Shown: positions 25,036 to 36,974 of the stretch, piece by piece
Layout: every line of letters starts with the position of its first letter
Position numbering within the stretch: position 1 is the stretch's first letter
NCBI RefSeq assembly: GCF_014646815.1
Contig: NZ_BMNZ01000002.1
Location: 434,001-498,000 of the forward strand
Origin: Terrabacter tumescens
GTDB lineage: Bacteria; Actinomycetota; Actinomycetes; Actinomycetales; Dermatophilaceae
Reading direction: 5' to 3'
DNA: 64,000 nt
Translations under genes and position numbers: made by a program
The notes under the pieces: generated by a model
Seen by the model: the letters and a program-made list of their open reading frames with translations, nothing else
What the model was told of the DNA's origin: nothing
Database searches by the model: none

Positions 25036-27090
25036 ATGCGGCCCTCCGGCGTCGCCGAATCGCCTGACCCCTCGCTCAACCCCGCGGACGCGATCGTCGT
25101 CCGGGGACGCGACCCCGCGCTCCTGGCCGCCGCGGTGCGCCGCCTGCTGCCGTCCACGACTCTGTCAGGGCGGGCGGTCGTCCTCGCTCGGCTCTCACCT
25201 CCGACGCCGGCGTCCGCATCGGTGGTGCACGTCGTCGTCGACGCGCTCGTCGAGGCCGGGTGCGAGGTGTCCGTCGCGGGCCAGCTCGCAAGTCGGGACC
25301 GCGACCGCGGGCACCGCTCCGTCGGGGCGCTCGCGCACGCGGCGGGGCTCACCGACCGCACGGAACGGGGGAGGCCGTATGCCGTCCTCGACCTCGCCGA
25401 CGACCTCGTGCCCTCCCCGGGCCCCGCGACGAGCGTCCTCGCCGGGCTGCCGGTGCCGCGGGCGTGGCTCACGGCGGACACCCGCGTCGTCGTGGGGCGT
25501 GCCGTCACCGACCTCGTCGAGACGTATGCCGGGTGCCTCGACACGCTGCTCCGGGCCGTCCCGGAGGTGGCGGGGTGTGAGCCCGCGGACCTCGCCGCCG
25601 AGGTGGCGCGGCACCTCGGCCCGCACCTCGTGGTGCTCGACGCCCTCGACACGAGCGGTGGCGCCGACGGTGGGCGGCTCCCGCAGGTCACCGAGACGGA
25701 CACCGTCGTCGTCGCGAGAGACCCCGTGCTCGCGGACGTCACGCTCGCCGGTCTGCTCGGCGTGGACCGGTCGAGCTCGTCGCTGGTCGAGCGAGCCGTG
25801 ATGCTCCTCGGGGAGCCTGTCGGCCGCGTCGAGGGCGATCTGCAGCCCTTCGCCCCAGTCGCCCACGCCCATCCCCTCGCGGTGAGAGCCGCCCGTCGGT
25901 GTGCCCGCGACGTCCGCCTGGCGCGGGTCCTCAGCGCCGCGACCGGCGGCCCCGACGCCGGATCGGTCACCGCAGACCCCGTGCTCGCCGCCCTGCGACC
26001 GCTCGTGACCGAGGCCGTCCGGGCCGCCGCCGACCCCGTCGGACAGGCGGGACTCGTGGCCTTGCTCGGGCTGGCGTCGACGCTCTCGGCCGGCGGGGAG
26101 GCCTGGGCCGCGACGATGGACAAGTCCAAGGTCGACCGACGGGTGGTCTCCCTGGGCTTCGACCCCGGCGACCACCCGGACGCCGACTACGACGCGCTCC
26201 CCGCCCAGCTCGCCGCCATCGACGCGGTCGTCGACCGGCTGCCGAGGACCAACGACCCGGACGCCCTGCGGTGGTGTCTCGTCGACGGCGCGACCGTCTT
26301 CGAGGTCCGTCGGGTCGTCGCGGCCGACTTCGACGCGTGGGTCGAGCGCGTCGACGTCGCCGAGGGCATCAGCGTCATGGCCGACTACATCGGCGGCCGG
26401 AGGGTGCTCGTCGGCGAGCCCAGTCCCAGTGAGAACCCGGGCGGCTCACGGCAGCGGCAGGCCGAGCGCAACCTCTACCTGCCCCAGCCGAACTACCTGG
26501 CCGCGTGGGGCGGCGAGCCGATCGACGTCTGCAAGATCGAGCTCGTCGAGCGCGGGCCGGACCGCCACCGGCTGCTCTGGCGCACCGTCTCGAGCCCCAA
26601 CGGCTCCGCCACCCACGACGACGGCACCCTCACCTTCGAGCGGACCGGTGACGGTGCCACGCTCGTGACGATCCGCGGCCGTCAGCTGTTCACGCTGCCC
26701 CCGGTGCTCGACGCGGCCGACCTGCCGTCGGTGCCGGAGCTGCACGGCCCCCTCCTGGAGGAGGCCTACCGGCGCTTCTTCACCGCCACCTTCGACAACC
26801 TCGAGGCCTGTTTCGAGGGCCGCGAGCACCGCATCGGCCGTCCTCCGCCGGACCCGTCGGAGCCGCTGCTCACCGAGTCGGTGCGGATGCTCGTCGACGC
26901 CCTCACCTCTCGCCTCGGGGTGGGGGACCAGCAACGTGAGCACGGGACGCCGGCCGCACGGGATGGCGCGCCCGACCCGGCCCTCGACGTGCACGGGTTC
27001 CGGCACGTCCCCGGCCCGCGCAGCCGTGACACCGGCCCGGCAGCTGCGCGTGCCGACGCTGGCTCGATCGACGAGGGGGCGACCTCATGA
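25036..27090 (+). CDS. DUF362-like and SRPBCC fusion protein
   Basis: 684 residues. The N-terminal ~330 residues look like a DUF362 domain: an opening 'A-I-V-V-R-G-R-D', then 'H-V-V-V-D-A-L-V-E-A-G-C-E-V-S-V-A' and internal 'D-T-V-V-V-A-R-D-P-V-L-A-D-V'. The canonical cysteine cluster of ferredoxin-type DUF362 proteins is missing. After a helical linker, residues about 425-605 resemble a START/SRPBCC lipid-binding domain ('D-A-W-V-E-R-V-D-V' to 'Y-R-R-F-F-T-A-T-F-D-N-L-E'). The last ~60 residues are low complexity. ATG 25036 is used. It overlaps the SDR gene by 4 bp. A role in handling a hydrophobic product is an inference. Confidence 0.6.
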   Translation: MRPSGVAESPDPSLNPADAIVVRGRDPALLAAAVRRLLPSTTLSGRAVVLARLSPPTPASASVVHVVVDALVEAGCEVSVAGQLASRDRDRGHRSVGALAHAAGLTDRTERGRPYAVLDLADDLVPSPGPATSVLAGLPVPRAWLTADTRVVVGRAVTDLVETYAGCLDTLLRAVPEVAGCEPADLAAEVARHLGPHLVVLDALDTSGGADGGRLPQVTETDTVVVARDPVLADVTLAGLLGVDRSSSSLVERAVMLLGEPVGRVEGDLQPFAPVAHAHPLAVRAARRCARDVRLARVLSAATGGPDAGSVTADPVLAALRPLVTEAVRAAADPVGQAGLVALLGLASTLSAGGEAWAATMDKSKVDRRVVSLGFDPGDHPDADYDALPAQLAAIDAVVDRLPRTNDPDALRWCLVDGATVFEVRRVVAADFDAWVERVDVAEGISVMADYIGGRRVLVGEPSPSENPGGSRQRQAERNLYLPQPNYLAAWGGEPIDVCKIELVERGPDRHRLLWRTVSSPNGSATHDDGTLTFERTGDGATLVTIRGRQLFTLPPVLDAADLPSVPELHGPLLEEAYRRFFTATFDNLEACFEGREHRIGRPPPDPSEPLLTESVRMLVDALTSRLGVGDQQREHGTPAARDGAPDPALDVHGFRHVPGPRSRDTGPAAARADAGSIDEGATS

Positions 27091-28292
27091 GGGTCGCGGT
27101 CACCGGATCGACGGGGCTGGTCGGCCACCACGTCGTCGCGGCAGCCCTGACCGGCGGCCACGAGGTGGTCGCCGTGACCCGCCCCGGACGCCGGCTGCCC
27201 CAGCGGCTGCTCGCGCTGGGTGAGGTCGGTCAGGCGCGCGCGAGCCTGACCGACCGGGTCTCCCTCGCGCGCGCCTTCGAGGGGGTCGACGCACTGGTGC
27301 ACTGCGCGGCCGTCTACTCCTACGACGCCGCGGCCACCGCGGAGCTCGCCGACGTCAACGTCGCCGGGACCCGCGCCGTGCTCGAGGCGGTTGCCGCAGC
27401 CGGCGTCACCCGCGCCGTCGTCACGAGCTCGGCGGTGACCCGCGGCTCGAGCCTGCAGCCGCTGCCGCGCGACGAGCGCCACCACCTCGGCACCGAGCCC
27501 GCACCGGCGTACTACGCGAGCAAGGTGCGCCAGGAGCAGGCGGCCCTCGACGTCGCCGAGAGCACCGGGCTCGAGGTCGTGCTCGCGCTGCCGACCGTCG
27601 TGCTCGGAGGACCCTACGACCGACTGGGCCCGAGCAACGCCATCGTGCTGCGATACCTCCTCGACCCCACCCGCAGCACGTACCCCGGAGGCTGCAACGT
27701 CGTCGACGCCCGCGACGTGGGTGCGGGTCACGTCACCCTCCTCGAGCGCGGCGAGCCGGGGGAGCGCTACCTCCTCGGCGGCGAGGACGTCTCGTGGCGC
27801 ACGCTGCACGGCCTCGTCGCCGACCTGGCCGGCGTCGGTCAGCCGGTGCTCGAGCTCCCGGCAGGGGCAGCGTGGCTGGCCGCCGGCGCGGCGGAGGCGT
27901 GGGCGCGACTGACGTCGTCATCGCCCTTGTCGACCCGCGAGGAGGCCTCGACCGTCGGGCGCTACTACTGGTACGCCTCCGACCGTGCCCTCGGGATCGG
28001 GTATGCCGCCCGCCCGGCCCGCGAGGCCGTGGCCGCCTCTCTCGCGTGGCTGGCCATCGGGCCGGACCTGCCGCGGTTCGTGCGCGAGTCGCTGCGCCTC
28101 GCCCCGGCGGTGCGGGCCGCCCGTCCGCTCGAGCCCCGGGCCCTCCCCGGTCCCGTGGGTGGCGGGACGGGTTCGGCACCGGGTTCCGAGACCGGGGCCG
28201 AGGGTGGTGACCCGAGCTCCGGCCGGCCGCTCACTCCTCGACGACGACCGCCACGTCCAGCTCCGCCTCGACGCCGCCCGTCACGAGGATGA
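27087..28292 (+). CDS. NAD(P)-dependent epimerase/dehydratase-type SDR
   Basis: 401 residues. Extended SDR: Rossmann 'V-T-G-S-T-G-L-V-G-H-H' near residue 8, 'C-A-A-V-Y-S-Y' and 'V-T-S-S-A-V-T-R', and catalytic Y-x-x-x-K in 'P-A-Y-Y-A-S-K'. Overall it resembles dihydroflavonol-reductase/3-beta-HSD-like members that reduce or oxidise hydroxyl groups on hydrophobic substrates. Coupled to the DUF362-SRPBCC gene by a 4-bp overlap. Its Pro/Arg-rich tail overlaps the convergent phasin-like gene by 62 bp, so an earlier natural stop in relatives should be checked. Confidence 0.75.
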   Translation: MRVAVTGSTGLVGHHVVAAALTGGHEVVAVTRPGRRLPQRLLALGEVGQARASLTDRVSLARAFEGVDALVHCAAVYSYDAAATAELADVNVAGTRAVLEAVAAAGVTRAVVTSSAVTRGSSLQPLPRDERHHLGTEPAPAYYASKVRQEQAALDVAESTGLEVVLALPTVVLGGPYDRLGPSNAIVLRYLLDPTRSTYPGGCNVVDARDVGAGHVTLLERGEPGERYLLGGEDVSWRTLHGLVADLAGVGQPVLELPAGAAWLAAGAAEAWARLTSSSPLSTREEASTVGRYYWYASDRALGIGYAARPAREAVAASLAWLAIGPDLPRFVRESLRLAPAVRAARPLEPRALPGPVGGGTGSAPGSETGAEGGDPSSGRPLTPRRRPPRPAPPRRRPSRG

Positions 28293-29106
28293 CCCCCTCG
28301 TAGCGCTCACCGGGACGCACCACGTCGGACTTGAGGTCCACCTCGAGCAGGACGTCGTGCTCGGAGCCGGCCGGGATGGTGACGCCGTCGGGGTCCAGCC
28401 GCAGCTCGAGCTCGACATGACGCCCCGAGTCGGGTTGCAGCCGTCCGGCCGAGAGCAGCACCTTGCGGGCGCGCGGGTGGGCGTTCGACAGCGTGACCCG
28501 GCCCGTCGCCGTGTCTCCCGGACGCCCGTGCAGGGTCACGGCTGCTCTGCCCGCGACGGCGCCGGTGTCCGCGTGCGCTTCGGCTGCGCCCGATTCCGCT
28601 GCAGGCCTGGTGATGACGACGTCCGACTGCTCGTCGGCATCGCCAGGATCACCGAGGTCGCCGGCATCGCCGGCACCGTGACGGTCACCGTCCCGGTGTG
28701 CAGCGTGCGATGGCGGCCCAGGTGCAGGCCCGCGCCCCGTCCCGGCTCGCGTCCCGGTCCGAGTTTCGGCGCGAGTCCCGGCTTGCGTCCCTGCCCGGGC
28801 CCCGGACCGCGTCGCAGAACGGGTGTCTGCGATGACCCGGGCCATGCTGCGGCTGCCGATGGCGACGAGGCTGCCGGCCACGTCGAGCCCGAGCTCACCG
28901 ACGTCCTTCCAGTAGCGGGCGCCCTCGCGGCTGACCGCCTCGACCCAGGCCCGCCCCGCCGTGGTCGGGTCCACCTCGGAGGTCAGCGTGGCCCGACCCA
29001 GCTCGATCGACTGCCGCGCGAAGTCCGCCTGCGCCGACCAGGCGTCGCGCGCCAGCTCGGTGATGCGGGCGAGCATCTCGTCCTGGCCCCTCGCGTTCGA
29101 CGACAT
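28231..29106 (-). CDS. Phasin-like protein with C-terminal Ig-like domain
   Basis: 291 residues. The N-terminal ~92 residues are amphipathic helices like a phasin coat protein: 'R-I-T-E-L-A-R-D-A-W-S-A-Q-A-D-F-A-R-Q-S' then 'L-V-A-I-G-S-R-S-M'. Residues 95-130 are a Gly-Thr-Arg-Ala repeat and 130-185 a His/Asp-rich spacer. Residues about 186-291 form a beta-sandwich ('L-H-G-R-P-G-D-T-A-T-G-R-V-T-L-S-N'). This is the alpha-galactosidase-NEW3/COG1470 type seen in the next two proteins. It is the last gene of the five-gene operon, 11 bp downstream of 29118. I infer a role coating a granule or membrane. Confidence 0.55.
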   Translation of the reverse strand: MSSNARGQDEMLARITELARDAWSAQADFARQSIELGRATLTSEVDPTTAGRAWVEAVSREGARYWKDVGELGLDVAGSLVAIGSRSMARVIADTRSATRSGARAGTQAGTRAETRTGTRAGTGRGPAPGPPSHAAHRDGDRHGAGDAGDLGDPGDADEQSDVVITRPAAESGAAEAHADTGAVAGRAAVTLHGRPGDTATGRVTLSNAHPRARKVLLSAGRLQPDSGRHVELELRLDPDGVTIPAGSEHDVLLEVDLKSDVVRPGERYEGVILVTGGVEAELDVAVVVEE

Positions 29107-29117
29107 CACATGCCTCC

Positions 29118-30116
29118 TCAGCAGCAGCCGCAGTCGCAGCCGGCCTGCACCGGGTCGCACCGCGACGGACTCACGACGACAGCCACGCGCAGCGGCCGCG
29201 AGCACCCCTCGAAGCGCACGTCGGCGTAGGCGCACGCGCACGCGTCGAGGTCGCCCGGCAGACGGCCCTGACCCATCCCCACATGGGTGTCGAGCGCGAC
29301 GTCGGAGCCCTCCTTCTCGTCCGGACCGGCGGCATCGGATCCCTTGCCGCCACCTTGGCCACCTTCGCCACCTTGCCCGTCTCCGCCGTCACCGCCCTGG
29401 CCGGCGGTGGTCGTGACGCCGATGACGAGCCGCACGATGCGGTCCTCGCACGGCGCGAGGGTGACTTGCTCCTCCTCGAGCACCGCGACGACGGCGAGGT
29501 CGGTGTCGGTGCCCACGTGCCAGGGGCCCACCGCCAGCGTGACCGGGCGCTCGCGGCGCCAGGCGTTGTGCAGGGCCAGCGGGATGATCCGCCGCTCGCC
29601 GACGCGCGTGCGGACGACGACGTCCGCGTCGGGCACGCAGCAGTCGCAGGCGTCCCGGCAGCCGCACGCCGAGCCGTGGTGGCCGTGGCGCTCGTGATCG
29701 TGATGGTCGTGACCTTCATGCTCGTGAGCGTGGTCGTGGTGGTCGTGATGGTCGTGTCCCTGGTCGCCGCACCCGCACCCGCACCCGCATCCGCCACCAC
29801 AGCCACCGTCACAGCCGTGCCGGTCGGCCCCGCAGCCACAGTCGTCAGGTCCGGTGTGGCGGCCGTGGTCATGGTGTTCGTGGTGGTGTTCGTGGTCGTG
29901 GTGATGGTCGTGGTGATGGGCTCCGTGGTCGTGGGCGGGGCGGGAGCGCTGCTGCCCCCACGCCGGCCACGGGGAACTGGGGCCCGCGCTGCTGCCGCCC
30001 ATGAAGGGCGCGGTCATCTCGTCCCAGAGCGACTGCGAGGCGTCGGTCCACTGCTGGACGGCGTCGACCCAGCCGGTCCGCAACGAGGTGAACAGGTCTG
30101 GCGTGGAGGTGCTCAT
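29118..30116 (-). CDS. His/Cys-rich metal-binding protein
   Basis: 332 residues. Residues 1-40 form a phasin-like amphipathic helix ('G-W-V-D-A-V-Q-Q-W-T'). Then come a His/Asp tract (62-87), a Cys/Gly tract (93-117), a second His tract (120-147) and C-x-C pairs (151-160). A beta-sandwich follows ('I-I-P-L-A-L-H-N-A-W-R-R'). After a Gly/Glu linker a second Cys-rich end is found (D-A-C-A-C-A ... D-C-G-C-C). This composition predicts binding of Zn, Ni, Cu or Fe. Its start overlaps the stop of the next gene upstream by 4 bp (ATGA). Not a known metallothionein or HypB/UreE. Function unknown. Confidence 0.6.
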   Translation of the reverse strand: MSTSTPDLFTSLRTGWVDAVQQWTDASQSLWDEMTAPFMGGSSAGPSSPWPAWGQQRSRPAHDHGAHHHDHHHDHEHHHEHHDHGRHTGPDDCGCGADRHGCDGGCGGGCGCGCGCGDQGHDHHDHHDHAHEHEGHDHHDHERHGHHGSACGCRDACDCCVPDADVVVRTRVGERRIIPLALHNAWRRERPVTLAVGPWHVGTDTDLAVVAVLEEEQVTLAPCEDRIVRLVIGVTTTAGQGGDGGDGQGGEGGQGGGKGSDAAGPDEKEGSDVALDTHVGMGQGRLPGDLDACACAYADVRFEGCSRPLRVAVVVSPSRCDPVQAGCDCGCC

Positions 30117-30823
30117 GACTTCGACTCCGATCGGTCTCGCGGAAGGATGACGACGTCCAGGTCGGCGACGCCGACGGGGACGGACGCGGTGTGTCGCCGG
30201 GCGGGGTCGAGGCCGGGCGGGACCTCGAGCCGGGCGGCGAGGGTGACGGTCTGGCCGGGCTCGACGACCCCGGGGGCGTCGAGCGCGAGGACGACGTCGG
30301 GGCCGGGATCCGGGCCACCGTCGTCGGTGCGGGCCTTCGTGAGTGCAGCAAGCGGCATACGCACGTTGCCCGTGTTGGTGACGACGAGGGTCACGTCCTG
30401 GCTGCCCTCGACGGCGAGGACGCGGCGGGGGCTCAGGTCGAGCGCGAGGTGGGGTGCCACGTCGACGACGACGGGTCGGCGCACCCCGCCGAGCTCCATC
30501 TCGGCCTCATGCCGACCCGGTGGGGTGCGGGCGGGGAGGGGCACGACGACCGGGACCTCGACCGTGTGGCCCCGCGGGATGATGGCGCTCGCCGCGCCCG
30601 TGACCACCTCACCGCCGAGGTGCAGGGTCGGGCGTCGGACGACGAGCCGGTCCGCCGAGACGTTCTCGACGGTCACGGTGGTCGTGAGCCGCCCCGGAGG
30701 CCCTGCGAGCACGATCGCGTCGTCCGGCTCCGCCGCGGGTGGTCGCCGGCGGGAGGGGCGGGACGGGCGGGCGGGTGACGAGGCGGCCTTCGTGGTGGCC
30801 GGCTTGCGTCGTGGGGTCGGCAT
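30113..30823 (-). CDS. Two-domain Ig-like (COG1470/NEW3-type) protein
   Basis: 236 residues. The first 32 residues are Lys/Arg/Pro/Ala-rich and disordered, with no signal peptide. Two beta-sandwich domains follow (about 38-125 and 128-228), each with the 'T-V-x-N-V/T' strand and 'V-x-x-P-x-x-L-x-P-G-x-H' or 'V-E-P-G-Q-T-V-T-L' edge that marks NEW3/CARDB-like domains. Without a signal peptide it probably works inside the cell, which is unusual for this fold. It overlaps the His/Cys-rich gene by 4 bp and starts 11 bp after the 'xDSTSKL' gene stop. Confidence 0.6.
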   Translation of the reverse strand: MPTPRRKPATTKAASSPARPSRPSRRRPPAAEPDDAIVLAGPPGRLTTTVTVENVSADRLVVRRPTLHLGGEVVTGAASAIIPRGHTVEVPVVVPLPARTPPGRHEAEMELGGVRRPVVVDVAPHLALDLSPRRVLAVEGSQDVTLVVTNTGNVRMPLAALTKARTDDGGPDPGPDVVLALDAPGVVEPGQTVTLAARLEVPPGLDPARRHTASVPVGVADLDVVILPRDRSESKS

Positions 30824-30834
30824 GGCGGCGTCCT

Positions 30835-31293
30835 CTACAGGTCGATGACGACGGGGCCGCTGGGGACGGGGCGCACGTGAGTCGACGTGCGGCCGCGTAC
30901 CGTGACGGCGAAGACCTCGAGGCCGAGCACCGACCAGCTCCACTGCTGCTCGTAGGGCGTCGACACCTCCGTCGGCGGCGGTGGGGCGAGCTCGAGACGC
31001 ACGCACGAGTCGAGGGCGACGGGTCTCAGGTCGACGACCGACGCCGAGTCGATCTTCGAGGTAGTGTCGACGGCCGAGGTCGAGTCCAGCTTGGCGGTCG
31101 AGTCGAGCTTCGAGGTCGAGTCGACGGTCGTCGTCACCGGCGCGAGCGCGACCTTCGAGTCGGTGTGCACCGTGTTGTCGCCAGCGAGGGTCAGCTTCAT
31201 GTCGTCGAGACCGGCGAGCTGGCTCGTGACGTCGGCCGTGACGTCGCTGTTGACGCTGCCGCTCAGCGCGGTGTCGATCGAGTAGGTGGCCAT
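30835..31293 (-). CDS. Short repeat protein ('xDSTSKL' repeats, DSCV-LELAP motif)
   Basis: 152 residues. The N-terminal half alternates Val/Asp/Thr with short repeats such as V-D-S-T-S-K-L, D-S-T-A-K-L, V-D-T-T-S-K-I, which could form a beta-solenoid. The C-terminal half has D-S-C-V-R-L-E-L-A-P-P-P-P-T, then 'Y-E-Q-Q-W-S-W-S-V-L-G-L-E-V-F-A-V-T'. I know no characterised family with these features. TGATG joins its start to the propeller gene stop, so translation is coupled. It has no signal peptide or membrane helix. Confidence 0.55.
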   Translation of the reverse strand: MATYSIDTALSGSVNSDVTADVTSQLAGLDDMKLTLAGDNTVHTDSKVALAPVTTTVDSTSKLDSTAKLDSTSAVDTTSKIDSASVVDLRPVALDSCVRLELAPPPPTEVSTPYEQQWSWSVLGLEVFAVTVRGRTSTHVRPVPSGPVVIDL

Positions 31294-32576
31294 CAGTGCT
31301 CTCCTGACTGGGCGGTGCGCGGTGGGTCGGGCGGTGGGCCGGGCGGTGTTGCGAGAGGTGCCTCGGGGCTGACGAGGTAGGAGTGGTGGAAGCCGAGCCG
31401 GGGGTCGGCCCAGTCCGACAGGCCGGGGTCGATCTCCCCGAGCTCCGGCATGACGATGCGGTCGCGCAGCTCCAGCGACGGGTAGTCGTAGACGCTGATG
31501 TGGTTCTGCCCCCGGTTGGCCGTGAAGAGCAGCGTCTGGTCGGCCGAGAGCTGGCACGCGTAGATGCCGTCGATGAGCGAGCCGCGGCTCACCCGGAACG
31601 ACTCGGCGAAGAGGTTGGCGTTGCCGACGACGTTGGCCCGCATGAAGGACTCGGCAAGCGTGTTGAGCGACTGTCGCGGGTAGGCCCACGACTCGAGGGC
31701 TCCCGGGTGCTCGTCGACGAGACGGTGGTGGGTCATCGTCTCGAGGTCGACGAGGACGACCGTGTGGCTGCCCCCGGTGCAGAAGATGAGCTCGCTGTCC
31801 GAGATCGTCACGTCCGAGTTGATGTGCGCGGGCACGTCGCGGTCGGCGACCCAGTGGCGCAGGACCTGGCCGTGCTCGGCGTCGATCTCGAACGCATACT
31901 GCCTCAGCCACGCCATGCCCCAGTGCGCGTAGTCCGTCCGGTCGGCGGGGTGCACCCGGAAGGACACGGCATAGAAGACGTCGAGCACCGGGTGGCACAC
32001 GACGTGCCAGCACGTCGTCGGCAGCGTCACCGTGCGCACCTCGCCCGAGACGGTGTCGAGGATGCCGACCTCGCGGGCCTCGCTGCGCGATGGGTGGTCC
32101 ATGCCCCCGTAGACGACGTAGCGGCCCGACGCGGTGCGCTTCATCGCGTGCGGCACCTTGAGCCCGTGCGGGGCCAGGACCTCGGCCTTGGTGAGGCGGT
32201 TGACGTCGAAGCTCCACAGGTGCTCGCCGATCGCGGTGACGAACGTCGTGTCGTCGAGCCACACGAGGTGGGTGCTGCCCTTGATGGTCGTGTCGGGCAC
32301 CTCGAAGCGCAGCGTCGAGACCCGGTCGACCTCCTCGAGGGTGGCGAGGTCGTAGAAGAGCAGATGCTGACCGGTGTTGCCCAGGAAGCCGATCCGCCGG
32401 CTCGGGTCGACGCTCGGGGCGTGGCCGCCGGACGCACCGTGGAAGTAGCTGACCTTGTAGGAGTGGTCGCCGGTCACGGGGTCGTAGCGGAACAGGCACA
32501 CGCCGGCCCTACCCTCGAGGCCGTTCAGCCCGTTCCCGTCGAGGGCGACGTGGAACGCGTAGGGGTAGTCACGCAT
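31293..32576 (-). CDS. Beta-propeller-like protein, first gene of the five-gene operon
   Basis: 427 residues. Repeating strand patterns (V-S-Y-F-H-G-A..., L-L-F-Y-D-L-A-T-L-E-E-V, V-V-L-V-D-L-E-T-M, I-S-V-Y-D-Y-P-S-L-E) occur roughly every 45-60 residues. A W-x-V-H/F-C-T-G-G pattern and many His/Asp loops fit a six- or seven-bladed propeller. No signal peptide. Enzymes with this fold often bind metals or lipidic substrates, but no catalytic set is identified. It diverges from the UbiA gene across 123 bp, so both clusters could share control. It is the first gene of the transcript to 28231. Confidence 0.55.
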   Translation of the reverse strand: MRDYPYAFHVALDGNGLNGLEGRAGVCLFRYDPVTGDHSYKVSYFHGASGGHAPSVDPSRRIGFLGNTGQHLLFYDLATLEEVDRVSTLRFEVPDTTIKGSTHLVWLDDTTFVTAIGEHLWSFDVNRLTKAEVLAPHGLKVPHAMKRTASGRYVVYGGMDHPSRSEAREVGILDTVSGEVRTVTLPTTCWHVVCHPVLDVFYAVSFRVHPADRTDYAHWGMAWLRQYAFEIDAEHGQVLRHWVADRDVPAHINSDVTISDSELIFCTGGSHTVVLVDLETMTHHRLVDEHPGALESWAYPRQSLNTLAESFMRANVVGNANLFAESFRVSRGSLIDGIYACQLSADQTLLFTANRGQNHISVYDYPSLELRDRIVMPELGEIDPGLSDWADPRLGFHHSYLVSPEAPLATPPGPPPDPPRTAQSGEH

Positions 32577-32699: not shown

Positions 32700-33515
32700 G
32701 TGCCGGTCGGGCGAGGGAGAGCGACGCTGCAGGGTCTGGCGCTCGCGTGCCATCCCGGCCCCACCGTCGCCGTCACCGTCCTCACGGGGCTGCTCGCGGC
32801 GTCGACCGGGCACACAGCTGCACGCGGGCTGCTCGTGACCGCAGCGGTGCTCACGGGCCAGCTGTCCATCGGCTGGAGCAACGACCTGCTCGACGCCTCC
32901 CGGGACCGGGCCGTCGGGCGCGCCGACAAGCCGATCGCGCGGGGCGCCGTGCCCGAGCGGACGGTGCGGGCCGCCACGGCGGCTGCCCTCGTCGCCACCA
33001 CCGTCCTGTCGCTGGCGTGCGGCCTGGCCTCCGGCCTCGTCCACCTCCTGCTCGGCGTCGCGTCGGGCTGGGCCTACAACGTGTGGTTCAAGCGGTCCGT
33101 GCTCTCCCCGCTGCCGTATGCCGTCGCCTTCGCCGCGCTGCCCGCGGTCGTCACGCTCGCGCTGCCGGAGCCGGTGTGGCCAGCACCCTGGGTCATGGTG
33201 ACCGGGGCGCTCCTCGGGGTCGGCGCCCACCTGCTCAACGCCCTGCCCGACCTCGCCGACGACGAGGCCACCGGCGTCCACGGCCTGCCGCAGCGGCTGG
33301 GTGGCCGGACCGTGCGGTGGCTCGCGCCCGCCGTGCTGCTCGCCGGGACCGTTGTGGCCGCGACCGGGCCCGGCATCGACGCGGCGGGGGTGCTGCTCCT
33401 CGGGGCCTGCACGGTGCTGGCCGCCGTGGCGGTGCTGGAGCGGGGACGGCTCCCGTTCGTGGCGGCGGTCGGCATCGCGCTCGTCAACGTCGTGGCCCTC
33501 GTCGTCCGCCGCTGA
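32700..33515 (+). CDS. UbiA-family prenyltransferase
   Basis: 271 residues with GTG start. The first Asp-rich motif is N-D-L-L-D-A-S-R-D followed by 'D-K-P-I-A-R-G'; the second is 'D-L-A-D-D-E-A-T'. Eight to nine hydrophobic helices span the protein. UbiA enzymes transfer a prenyl diphosphate chain to an aromatic acceptor in the membrane, as in quinone biosynthesis. Sitting beside a type III PKS and an IPP isomerase, it may prenylate the PKS product. Acceptor and chain length are unknown. Confidence 0.85.
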
Positions 33516-33584
33516 GCCGAGCGACGGCCGTGACAGGTGGCGAAGGGTGTCCAGCGTCATGACGTCACCCCGCCACGATCGGCC

Positions 33585-33597
33585 TAGGGTGGGCAGG
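33585..33597 (+). promoter_or_regulatory. Leaderless promoter -10 (TAGGGT)
   Basis: TAGGGT at 33585-33590 plus 7 nt precede GTG 33598. This favours GTG 33598 over the ATG at 33559 that would add 13 residues. Confidence 0.55.
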
Positions 33598-34668
33598 GTG
33601 AGCCACCTTGCGGCCGTCCGGGGAGTCCTCCCAGAGCACACCTACGCCCAGGCCGACGTCACGGCGGCCTTCGCCGACGTGCTCGGCTCGGTCGGGTCCG
33701 ACCGCGCGCTGCTCGAGCGCTTCCACGCCAACGCCGGCGTCAGCCAGCGACACCTCGCCCTCCCGCTCGAGCGCTACTGGCAGCTCGAGGACTTCGGCGC
33801 TGCCAACGACGAGTTCATCCGCGTCGCCACCGAGCTCGGCTCGCACGCCGTCACCAAGGCGCTCGCGGCCGCGGGTCTCACTCCGCGGGACGTCGATCTC
33901 ATCATGTCGACGACGATCACCGGGCTCGCCGTCCCCTCGATCGAGGCGCGGGTCGCGGCCGAGATCGGGCTGCGCGACGACGTGAAGCGCATCCCGCTCG
34001 TCGGGCTGGGCTGCGTCGCGGGTGCTGCCGGCGTCGCGCGGGTCCACGACTACCTGCTCGGCCACCCCGACGACGTCGCCGTGCTGCTCTCGGTCGAGCT
34101 GTGCAGCCTCACCGTCCAGCGCGACGACCGGTCGGTCGCCAACCTCGTGGCCAGCGGGCTCTTCGGCGACGGCGCCGCGGCCGTCGTCATGGTCGGCGCC
34201 GACCGCGCCGCAGCCCTCGCGCCAGGCCAGCCCCGCGTCGTCGCCACCCGCAGCCGCCTCTACCCGGAGACCGAGCGCGCCATGGGCTGGGACGTCGGCG
34301 CCACCGGCCTGCGGATCGTCCTCGGCGCCGAGGTGCCCGACCTCGTGCGCGCCAACGTGCGCGGCGACGTCGACGGCTTTCTCGCCGACCAGGGCCTGAC
34401 CCGGGCCGACATCGGCTGGTGGGTCGCCCACCCCGGGGGTCCCAAGGTGCTCGAAGCCATGGAGGAGGCCCTCGAGGTCGACCGCGAGGCGCTCGGTGTC
34501 ACGTGGCGCTCGCTCGACCGCATCGGCAACCTCAGCTCCGCGTCGGTGCTCCACGTGCTCGCCGACACCCTCGCCGACCACACGCCCGAGCCCGGCTCGT
34601 GGGGCGTGCTCATGGCGATGGGCCCCGGCTTCTGCCTCGAGCTCGTCCTGCTCCGCGCGGCCGACTGA
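33598..34668 (+). CDS. Type III polyketide synthase (chalcone-synthase family)
   Basis: 356 residues. The catalytic triad is readable: Cys139 in '[11 protein letters not shown]', His278 in 'V-A-H-P-G-G-P-K-V' and Asn311 in 'G-N-L-S-S-A-S-V'. 'M-G-P-G-F' near the C-terminus is the family signature. These enzymes extend acyl-CoA with malonyl-CoA and cyclise the product, giving alkylresorcinols, pyrones or naphthalenes. The neighbours (ICMT-type methyltransferase and flavin monooxygenase) mirror the srsABC phenolic-lipid operon of Streptomyces griseus, so an alkylresorcinol-derived quinone is the best guess. Product not proven. Confidence 0.9.
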
Positions 34669-34675
34669 GGCGCCC

Positions 34676-35227
34676 ATGCTCTCCCAGTGGCTCTTCACCG
34701 GACTCGTCCTGCTCGTCGGTCTCGAGCGCGTCGCCGAGCTCGTCGTGTCCAAACGTCATGCGGCGTGGGCTTTCTCGCGCGGCGGGGTGGAGCGAGGGCA
34801 GTCGCACTACCCCGTCATGGTCGTGCTCCACACGGGGCTGCTCGTCGGCGCCGTCGCGGAGGTGTGGCTGGCCGACCGACCCTTCGTGCCCGCAGTCGGC
34901 TGGCTCATGCTCGCGCTCGTCGTCGCCAGCCAGGCGCTGCGCTGGTGGTGCATCACGACCCTCGGCAACCAGTGGAACACCCGCGTCATCGTCGTGCCCG
35001 GCATCTCCCTCGTGCGCCGCGGCCCCTACGGCGTCATCCCGCACCCGAACTACGTCGCCGTCGTCGTCGAGGGCCTCGCCCTGCCGCTCGTGCACGACGC
35101 GTGGGTGACGGCGCTCGTCTTCACCGTCGCCAACGCCGTGCTGCTCACCGTGCGCATCCGGGTCGAGAACGCCGCTCTTCGCGAGATCGCTTCTCCCGCA
35201 GGCACGCCCATCCAGGCAGCCTCGTGA
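34676..35227 (+). CDS. ICMT-family methyltransferase (SrsB-like)
   Basis: 183 residues. Four hydrophobic helices and the isoprenylcysteine-carboxyl-methyltransferase signature 'R-G-P-Y-G-V-I-P-H-P-N-Y' in the C-terminal third, which binds S-adenosylmethionine. In phenolic-lipid clusters such membrane enzymes O-methylate the resorcinol ring rather than prenylated cysteine. Begins 8 bp after the PKS stop and overlaps the next gene (GTGA). Assignment as SrsB-like rests on context. Confidence 0.8.
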   Translation: MLSQWLFTGLVLLVGLERVAELVVSKRHAAWAFSRGGVERGQSHYPVMVVLHTGLLVGAVAEVWLADRPFVPAVGWLMLALVVASQALRWWCITTLGNQWNTRVIVVPGISLVRRGPYGVIPHPNYVAVVVEGLALPLVHDAWVTALVFTVANAVLLTVRIRVENAALREIASPAGTPIQAAS

Positions 35228-36294
35228 GCACCGACGTCATCGTCATCGGCGGAGGTCCCGTGGGGCTCGCCACGGCGTTGTATGCCGTGCGCTCGGGCCT
35301 GTCTCCCGTCGTCCTCGAGCCGCGGGCCGGGACGATCGACAAGGCGTGCGGCGAGGGGCTCATGCCCGGTGGCCTCCTGGCGCTCACCGACCTCGGAATC
35401 GACCCGCCCGGCCACGACCTGCGCGGCATCCGCTACCTCGCCCGGGGACGCCAGGCCGAGGCGGACTTCACCGGCGGGCCGGGGCGGGGTGTCCGGCGGA
35501 CGACCCTCCACGACGCCCTGGCCCGAGCCGTGGGCGACGCCGGCGTCGAGGTGGTGCCGTTCGGTGCGTCCGAGGTCACGCAGGACGACGACGGCGTCAC
35601 GGTGCGCACCGGCGGACCGGCCGGCGCCGGACCGACACTGACAGCTCCCTGGGTGGTCGCCGCCGACGGGCTCCACTCGCCGACGCGCACGTCGCTGGGG
35701 CTCGACCGCGACCACGCCGCCACCACGCGCCCGCTGCGCCGCTACGGACTGCGCCAGCACTACGGCATACGCCCGTGGAGCGACCACGTCGAGGTGCACT
35801 GGGCCGCCCACGGGGAGGCCTACGTGACACCCGTGGCCGACGACCTCGTCGGCGTCGCCGTGCTGAGCAAGCAGCGGATCCCGTTGTCGGAGAGCCTCGC
35901 CGAGTTCCCGCAGCTGAGGGAGCGGCTCGACGGGGCACCCGTCGTCACGTCGGTGCGCGGCGCGGGGCCGCTGCGGCAGCGGACGACGCACCGCGTCGCG
36001 GGGCGGGTCCTGCTCGCCGGCGACGCGAGCGGCTACGTCGATGCGCTGACGGGGGAGGGCATCTCCCTCGGGCTCGCCCACGCCCGGGCGGCGGTCACGG
36101 CCGTCGCAGCCGACGACCCGCAGTCCTACGAGCGGTCGTGGCGCGCCGCCACCCGGCGCTACTCGCTGCTGACGCACGGGCTCGTCCAGGTCACACGCCC
36201 GGCGTGGTCCCGTCGGCTGCTCGTCCCGGCCGCGGCCACACTCCCGCCGGTCTTCCGCAGCGCCGTCAACGAGCTCGCGAGGCCCGGGCGATGA
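35224..36294 (+). CDS. FAD-dependent monooxygenase (SrsC-like)
   Basis: 356 residues with GTG start. FAD-binding 'V-I-G-G-G-P-V-G-L-A-T-A' at residue 6, 'D-K-A-C-G-E-G-L-M-P-G-G' near 40, and the second FAD motif 'V-L-L-A-G-D-A-S-G-Y-V-D-A-L-T-G-E-G-I' near 265. The C-G-E-G-L-M-P segment is shared by flavin hydroxylases of type III PKS clusters and geranylgeranyl reductases. Here ring hydroxylation to a hydroquinone or quinone fits best. Overlaps the methyltransferase and IDI genes by 4 bp each. Confidence 0.8.
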   Translation: MSTDVIVIGGGPVGLATALYAVRSGLSPVVLEPRAGTIDKACGEGLMPGGLLALTDLGIDPPGHDLRGIRYLARGRQAEADFTGGPGRGVRRTTLHDALARAVGDAGVEVVPFGASEVTQDDDGVTVRTGGPAGAGPTLTAPWVVAADGLHSPTRTSLGLDRDHAATTRPLRRYGLRQHYGIRPWSDHVEVHWAAHGEAYVTPVADDLVGVAVLSKQRIPLSESLAEFPQLRERLDGAPVVTSVRGAGPLRQRTTHRVAGRVLLAGDASGYVDALTGEGISLGLAHARAAVTAVAADDPQSYERSWRAATRRYSLLTHGLVQVTRPAWSRRLLVPAAATLPPVFRSAVNELARPGR

Positions 36295-36974
36295 CCGGCG
36301 GTGCGGAGGCGGGTGCGGAGGTGGCTCTGGGCGCCGACACCGGCGCTGGCACCGGGCAGGACGAGGAGCTCGTCGTCCTCGTCTCGGCAGACGGAGAGGC
36401 CGTGGGCACGGCGCCCAAGGCGACGGTGCACGGCCCCGACACCCCGCTCCACCTCGCCTTCTCCGTCTACCTCTTCGACGACGAGGGATCCCTGCTCGTG
36501 ACCCAGCGTGCCCTCGGCAAGGCCACCTTCCCGGGAGTGTGGACCAACTCGGCGTGCGGGCACCCGGCGCCCGGCGAGGCGGTCGAGGACGCGGTACGCC
36601 GTCGGGCCCGTGACGAGCTCGGCCTGGACGTGCACGACCTGCGGCTCGTCCTGCCCCGCTTCTCCTACCGGGCCGAGATGGACGGCGTCGTCGAGTGGGA
36701 GCTGTGCCCCGTGCTCACGGGCCGGGTCACGGGGTCCGCGCCGGCGCCCGGCCCCGACCCGACCGAGGTCGAGGACGCCCGGTGGTTGCCGTGGGAGCCG
36801 TTCGCCGCCGACGTGCTCGCGGGACGGCGACAGGTGTCGACGTGGTGCCGCGAGCAGGTGGCCGAGCTGACCGCGCTCGGCGCCGACCCGGCACGCTGGC
36901 CGGCCGCCGACCCCGCCGACCTCCCGGCCGCCATGACCACCGAGTCGAGTGGGCGCCCCGCCCCGGTCGACTGA
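36291..36974 (+). CDS. idi: Isopentenyl-diphosphate isomerase, type 1
   Basis: 227 residues; 45 N-terminal residues beyond the core are Ala/Gly-rich. Nudix-like type 1 Idi: 'H-L-A-F-S-V-Y-L-F', catalytic Cys in 'T-F-P-G-V-W-T-N-S-A-C-G-H-P' and the catalytic Glu in 'V-E-W-E-L-C-P-V'. It interconverts IPP and DMAPP, the starters for prenyl chains. Ending the operon with it ties the cluster to a prenylated product through UbiA. Its last codons lie inside a 22-bp tandem repeat. Confidence 0.9.
   Translation: MTGGAEAGAEVALGADTGAGTGQDEELVVLVSADGEAVGTAPKATVHGPDTPLHLAFSVYLFDDEGSLLVTQRALGKATFPGVWTNSACGHPAPGEAVEDAVRRRARDELGLDVHDLRLVLPRFSYRAEMDGVVEWELCPVLTGRVTGSAPAPGPDPTEVEDARWLPWEPFAADVLAGRRQVSTWCREQVAELTALGADPARWPAADPADLPAAMTTESSGRPAPVD

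Follow-up and report, generated by a model that had tools for sequence, protein, structure and literature searches.

A conserved unit of at least seven genes in Terrabacter tumescens, centred on a histidine-rich, probably propeller-shaped protein

Gene layout and inheritance

The stretch of DNA considered here, called the window, is 64,000 nucleotides from Terrabacter tumescens (assembly GCF_014646815.1, contig NZ_BMNZ01000002.1, positions 434,001 to 498,000; coordinates below are those of the window). It carries five closely packed minus-strand genes, designated P1 to P5, which converge on two plus-strand genes, W3 and W4; the unit they form may serve to make or modify a hydrophobic compound. 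P1 (31293-32576, minus strand, 427 amino acids) is overlapped by one base, in the sequence TGATG, by P2 (30835-31293, minus, 152 amino acids); P3 (30113-30823, minus, 236 amino acids) follows after a gap of 11 bases; P4 (29118-30116, minus, 332 amino acids) shares the four bases ATGA with P3; another gap of 11 bases leads to P5 (28231-29106, minus, 291 amino acids). Facing these are W3 (25036-27090, plus strand), encoding a DUF362-like domain and a C-terminal domain of about 250 amino acids, W3C, and W4 (27087-28292, plus strand), encoding an HpnA/3beta-HSD-like protein. The coordinates confirm the overlaps and gaps in the minus-strand run from which the original prediction had argued that the five genes are made together, and that view is borne out.

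Measured against two Terrabacter relatives, the ratio of nonsynonymous to synonymous substitution (dN/dS) comes to 0.13-0.16 for P1, 0.14-0.15 for P2, 0.22-0.25 for the last 199 residues of P3, 0.25-0.26 for P4 and 0.25-0.29 for P5; because of these values, P1 to P5 are taken as real genes under purifying selection. Elements of the layout recur in relatives, whose genes were predicted with an in-house script. The one-base overlap of P1 and P2 is found again in 12 of the 16 loci having both genes; at L017 the overlap is eight bases, and in three loci (L058, L069 and L070) P1 does not adjoin P2 (L and G numbers designate loci and genomes). The tails of P5 and W4 overlap by 62 bases in the window (28231-28292), and by 50-62 bases in 10 of the 11 Intrasporangiaceae loci having both (the window, L012-L019 and L021; L046 is the exception).

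The genes are also inherited together. The family sample comprises 186 genomes; 18 carry P1 and 16 carry P2, the latter in every case on the P1 contig and adjoining P1. P5 is matched in 20 at E<=0.001; 17 of these matches are strong and all lie in P1 genomes, and the other three, in genomes that do not carry P1, have E values of 7.5e-4 to 9.3e-4. A profile of W3 has matches in every one of the 18 P1 genomes and in one further genome (G096); W3 and W4 therefore belong to the unit, which comprises at least seven genes. Co-occurrence in relatives, which the original prediction had proposed as its own test, is thus seen, and the five-gene boundary it had drawn is too narrow. The exceptions are few. 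In G165, the sole P1 genome of the family that does not have P5, the contig carrying P2 seems to break off inside that gene (L023). P2 is missing from G001 and G070; in G001 (L009, L014) P1 directly overlaps P5. At L014 (10001-12012), the locus of Terrabacter sp. MAHUQ-38, P1 overlaps P5 and P2 to P4 are missing; P1 and P5 can therefore persist without them. Of 396 genomes sampled from the phylum, four carry P1 and four carry P2, and three of the P2 genomes (G000, which is that of the window, G184 and G741) also carry P1; the P2 match in the fourth, G625, is weak, and that genome has no P1. The linkage of P1-P5 with W3-W4 is firm; the mechanism is not.

A distribution this patchy, both in the family and in the phylum sample, could be that of a surface or spore-coat structure, or of a defence island. 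This we regard as highly improbable. Neither signal peptide nor membrane helix is apparent in P1 to P5, in keeping with the original prediction: averaged over any 19 residues, the Kyte-Doolittle value is at most 1.72, a reading of hydropathy only, no dedicated signal-peptide program being involved. In addition, P1 is absent from 72,556 plasmid records, and of nine pattern matches in viral contigs none is a relative. When the P2-like, P4-like and YHDHNWG-like proteins of two distant loci (L071 and L058) were sought on plasmids, one weak match was found (11% coverage), to the YHDHNWG protein only.

P1, W3 and W4 as candidate enzymes

No enzyme figured in the original prediction, but within the unit conservation is highest in P1. 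Conservation between the window and L011, the locus of G039, is 77-78% for P1, as against 50% for P2, 44% for P3, 41% over 184 amino acids for P4 and 33% for P5. Eight histidines (52, 103, 137, 143, 191, 241, 397 and 398) are invariant in all 21 P1 homologues, down to 39% identity, and many polar residues are invariant too. Conservation so far above that of P2 to P5, together with the eight histidines, is as expected of an active site. Conserved histidines are found in metal propellers as they are in P1, and P1 is probably a metal-dependent enzyme with a putative metal site.

From its sequence, P1 is probably a seven-bladed beta-propeller with histidines on the inner strands, and in sequence comparison it forms a separate family that has no counterpart in Pfam or NCBIfam. 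The propeller had already been proposed in the original prediction, and it is less firm than the gene layout: Lactonase (PF10282) is matched below threshold by 8 of the 21 homologues (best E 0.0063, none above the curated cut-off) and Me-amine-dh_H by two, but P1 of the window has no Pfam match at E<=1. PepSY, which is not a propeller family, is matched by 11 of the 21 (best E 0.0011). The nearest known comparison is with the seven-bladed propeller enzymes: Lactonase, the methylamine dehydrogenase heavy chain and the carotenoid oxygenases. P1 resembles them in its homologues' subthreshold matches to the first two; it differs in that no match rises above cut-off, and carotenoid oxygenase (PF03055) is not among the matches of the 21 homologues at E<=0.5. 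A true member of that last family is encoded in the same genome (G000:C3:274532-275911, L059; PF03055, 423 bits). Two genomes, one of Streptomyces and one of Saccharothrix, have partial P1 matches that are perhaps decaying copies (L055 9974-10669 and L057 10001-10443).

W4 is an extended short-chain dehydrogenase/epimerase. It resembles three such enzymes of lipid pathways, HpnA (TIGR03466, 192.3 bits), SdmB (103.6 bits) and OleD (60.7 bits), and departs from all of them in falling under each equivalog cut-off (367.65, 600 and 580, respectively). The N-terminal domain of W3 stands in a similar relation to DUF362 (PF04015): the window protein scores 22 bits where the cut-off is 24, and homologues at L058 (83.8 bits) and L044 (29.1 bits) pass. 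The available text of one paper (PMC11770544) places DUF362 in Pfam clan CL0471, the clan that also holds the lactate racemase LarA. A difference from the DUF362 family is that in W3 this domain is joined to W3C, which other bacteria encode next to P1 as a protein in its own right. In Rheinheimera, proteins of about 300 and about 253 amino acids were considered as separate halves of W3; this was rejected, as by alignment both are copies of W3C.

P2 to P5 and a possible coat

P2 to P5 are probably scaffold proteins. P2 has a repeat-rich N-terminal part of threonine, serine and aspartate and a conserved C-terminal domain (...ELFALTVRG...); its hydropathy gives no signal at period 6 (p 0.64), the period of a hexapeptide repeat. 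P3 consists of two beta-sandwich-like segments with subthreshold Ig-like and NEW3 matches. In P4 a short amphipathic N-terminal helix is followed by a variable linker rich in histidine and cysteine and then by a beta-sandwich. P5 has a phasin-like, amphipathic helical N-terminal half, a variable linker and an Ig/Fn3-like beta-sandwich as its C-terminal half; in loci of Streptomyces and Nonomuraea, P1 is followed by a protein that is helical, 114-138 amino acids long and devoid of the sandwich.

The original prediction had seen NEW3-type sandwiches in three of the proteins and a phasin-like helix in two. The sandwich is common to P4 and P5 (hhalign probability 90, E 1.4e-6) and possibly shared, on a profile comparison, by P5 and P3 (probability 53, E 1.4e-4; the P3 alignment leaves out the misframed L008 protein), but a relation of P4 to P3 was not detected by hhalign, and in the Pfam search of P1-P5 the NEW3 family itself (NPCBM_assoc) appears for P3 only, at E 0.24. 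As to the helices, the N-termini of P5 (p 0.001) and P4 (p 0.004) are on average more amphipathic than 1000 shuffles; kinship with phasins is weak, Phasin_2 being matched by 3 of 16 P5 homologues (best E 0.041) and no Phasin family by P1-P5 of the window in Pfam at E<=1. In two distant phyla, P4/P5-like proteins (L058 15890-16609 and L071 8374-8955) have in common a motif, H/Q-W-x-DHF-x-C-x-x-PC, that is not seen in Terrabacter P4.

The composition of P4 bears on the proposal that it is loaded with metal through its histidine tracts. In the window it has 35 histidines and 22 cysteines, and 11 of the cysteines are invariant in 10 of 10 aligned rows (the count sets aside L058, which keeps four of the 11 columns, 157, 159, 293 and 305, and includes an L046 row that lacks the N-terminus). 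The histidine tract is not conserved: it falls to 5 histidines in L011 and 2 in L046, the N-terminus of which is not resolved, and loading by this tract is not supported. A broader form of the idea, in which the whole unit is a body for metal storage or trafficking that P4 loads through histidine and cysteine and for which the other proteins form the shell, draws on invariant cysteines that are compatible with metal binding. We consider it quite unlikely, for besides the variability of the tract (2-35 histidines), the MAHUQ-38 genome retains P1 and P5 with P4 missing, and no metal transporter or regulator was recognised among the annotated neighbours, which are only a part of all neighbours; that last point is qualified by a fragment of an E1-E2 ATPase near P1 in L070.

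Of the coat or granule that the original prediction envisaged, of lipid, polymer or protein, the lipid form is still a live hypothesis. The closest known analogue is the polyhydroxyalkanoate (PHA) granule with its phasins, which is alike in that amphipathic helical proteins are proposed to coat a hydrophobic cytoplasmic body, and in the weak Phasin_2 matches of P5. It is unlike in that P4 and P5 add beta-sandwiches and in that PhaC_N (PF07167) is absent from the window's genome, so that a PHA granule is unlikely there and was set aside. Among six P1 genomes tested, PhaC_N is absent from G000, G001, G005 and G007 and present in G015 and G039; it occurs in one of four tested Terrabacter genomes that do not have P1. 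Known protein shells and secretion systems are not matched either: at E<=1 in Pfam and NCBIfam, P1-P5 include no encapsulin family (the HK97-fold shell, compared by sequence only), no gas-vesicle Gvp family (the GvpA-type shell) and no secretion family, so that the kind of match by which the original prediction would have been refuted did not appear. At their cut-offs, neither Pfam nor NCBIfam covers these sequence families, but the likely working principle has known analogues.

The lipid form of the hypothesis gains from the company that these genes keep, which includes lipid- and isoprenoid-type genes. The HpnA-like W4 is one of them, PAP2 genes occur in seven loci, and genes for MMPL proteins and for the SRPBCC-type cyclase family also lie near P1. 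The main hint at isoprenoids is L071, in G625, where a P2-like (5.8e-8), a P3-like (4.5e-13) and three P5-like genes (4.4e-19, 3.5e-6 and 2.1e-9) occur in a genome that has no P1. Their row also holds a methyltransferase, an SCP2-like protein that stays below threshold and a polyprenyl synthetase, which scores 162.7 bits where the cut-off is 27; on a stricter count P3 and P5 alone pass. In a bolder reading, P2-P5 would be an undescribed protein-coated cytoplasmic body for isoprenoids or related lipids, with amphipathic-helix and beta-sandwich proteins and a cysteine-metal clasp in P4, with which different enzyme sets could go: a propeller with a histidine hub here, a polyprenyl synthase in G625. 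In this specific form the idea is unlikely.

Distribution beyond the family and the proposed function

P1 loci number 51, made up of the window, L011, L069, L070 and 47 loci in named genomes: actinobacteria, an acidobacterial metagenome-assembled genome (MAG), alpha-, beta- and gammaproteobacteria, a cyanobacterium, Myxococcales and an Opitutaceae MAG. Beside P1 in these loci are W3 or W3C in 39, W4 in 25, a P5-like gene in 23 and an SRPBCC-type gene, F15, in seven; all of P1-P5 are present in 14. Several of the loci counted are cut by contig ends, and the profiles were built partly from the same loci (L069, L070 and L071 are not in the profiles). Outside the Intrasporangiaceae, full P2-P5 sets occur, with gene order conserved, in G039 (L011), G741 (L069), G678 (L070) and the Opitutaceae MAG (L058); in L069 and L070 the genes P2-P3-P4-P5, P1 and F15-W4-W3 form one block.

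Other contexts are of a different kind. Two copies of W3C flank P1 in Rheinheimera, Pseudoalteromonas, Saccharothrix and Crossiella, in a cluster that also encodes an aldehyde dehydrogenase, an acyl-CoA dehydrogenase-like protein, a class III aminotransferase and a polyketide cyclase, with MMPL or PAP2 nearby; L040 (4422-12606) and L048 (4555-14155), from Gammaproteobacteria and Pseudonocardiaceae, are instances of this metabolite-type cluster. In the P1 tree, the sequences from this two-copy context group as a single clade (9 rows, two phyla, support 100/99; the tree leaves out the partial L055 and L057 sequences and the window row), and this grouping suggests that the cluster moved between phyla. 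In five myxococcal loci P1 is instead paired with F16, an upstream gene of the 2-oxoacid-dehydrogenase acyltransferase family (by Pfam on one of them); at L049 (9132-11203) P1 overlaps a gene with the catalytic domain of such an acyltransferase.

These metabolite-type clusters, one clade across two phyla, invite a plainer explanation: that the unit is an ordinary, uncharacterised biosynthetic gene cluster. Tailoring would then be the task of P1, W3 and W4, P2-P5 would be soluble proteins that act as carriers or form complexes, and there would be neither coat nor granule. We give this a real but minor share of belief. P2-P5 bear amphipathic N-termini and beta-sandwiches, not carrier domains, and they are absent from the very clusters that make the case.

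The explanation we tentatively prefer, with confidence somewhat short of even, is that P1-P5 and W3-W4 work as a single system in the cytoplasm, which has its own scaffold or coat and by which a hydrophobic compound, probably of an isoprenoid-like kind, is made or modified. P1, as a histidine-rich beta-propeller and probably a metal-dependent enzyme, would have its site at the propeller axis; W3 and W4 (the dehydrogenase or epimerase) would act on the substrate of P1, joined in some lineages by the SRPBCC-like protein. P2-P5 would be a dedicated scaffold or coat rather than enzymes: the amphipathic helices of P5 and P4 would attach to the hydrophobic body; a layer would be built from P2 and the beta-sandwiches; and the cysteine core of P4 would bind metal or cross-link that layer. 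If this is true, bacteria of several phyla share an unrecognised pathway of lipid or terpene processing, to which some add scaffold proteins of their own, and its central protein is a highly conserved histidine-rich propeller outside the Pfam and NCBIfam families. At least seven conserved genes would then acquire a name and a testable function, possibly together with a new kind of bacterial lipid body. The original prediction knew of no characterised system with its gene set, and none has been recognised since; in word searches of literature listings, the scope of which excluded subscription papers and preprints, no paper was recognised as describing the set.

Several observations weigh against the system just outlined. 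None of P1-P5 attains a cut-off in Pfam or NCBIfam. The internal-repeat self-alignment of P1 scores 30.0, which does not clearly beat 30 shuffles (mean 22.1, standard deviation 3.7, maximum 33.1); P1 was rejected as a carotenoid oxygenase, at an hhalign probability of 0.3 against the same-genome PF03055 protein, and no known metal propeller was matched. W3C belongs to no known family and finds no PDB chain at E<=1, and an SRPBCC fold for it, an idea drawn from gene layout, was set aside at probabilities of 0.4 and 7. In G039 the 20 kb read around P1 show no W3, the myxococcal P1 loci have none either, and at least one of P2-P5 is missing from 37 of the 51 P1 loci, some of which are truncated where a contig stops. 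L071 supplies its link to isoprenoids from a single genome, with an SCP2-like match below cut-off, and the prenyltransferase, polyketide synthase, methyltransferase and NUDIX neighbours of the window are confined to Terrabacter loci. Finally, the coat or granule is a proposal read from genes, a point that speaks also for the ordinary biosynthetic cluster.

The neighbours just mentioned lie on the plus strand at 32700-36974, divergent from P1, and encode a UbiA prenyltransferase, a type III polyketide synthase-like protein, an ICMT-like methyltransferase, a flavin adenine dinucleotide (FAD) oxidoreductase and a NUDIX protein. Their restriction to Terrabacter loci excludes them from the core of the system; the run is possibly an isoprenoid-quinone-type cluster.

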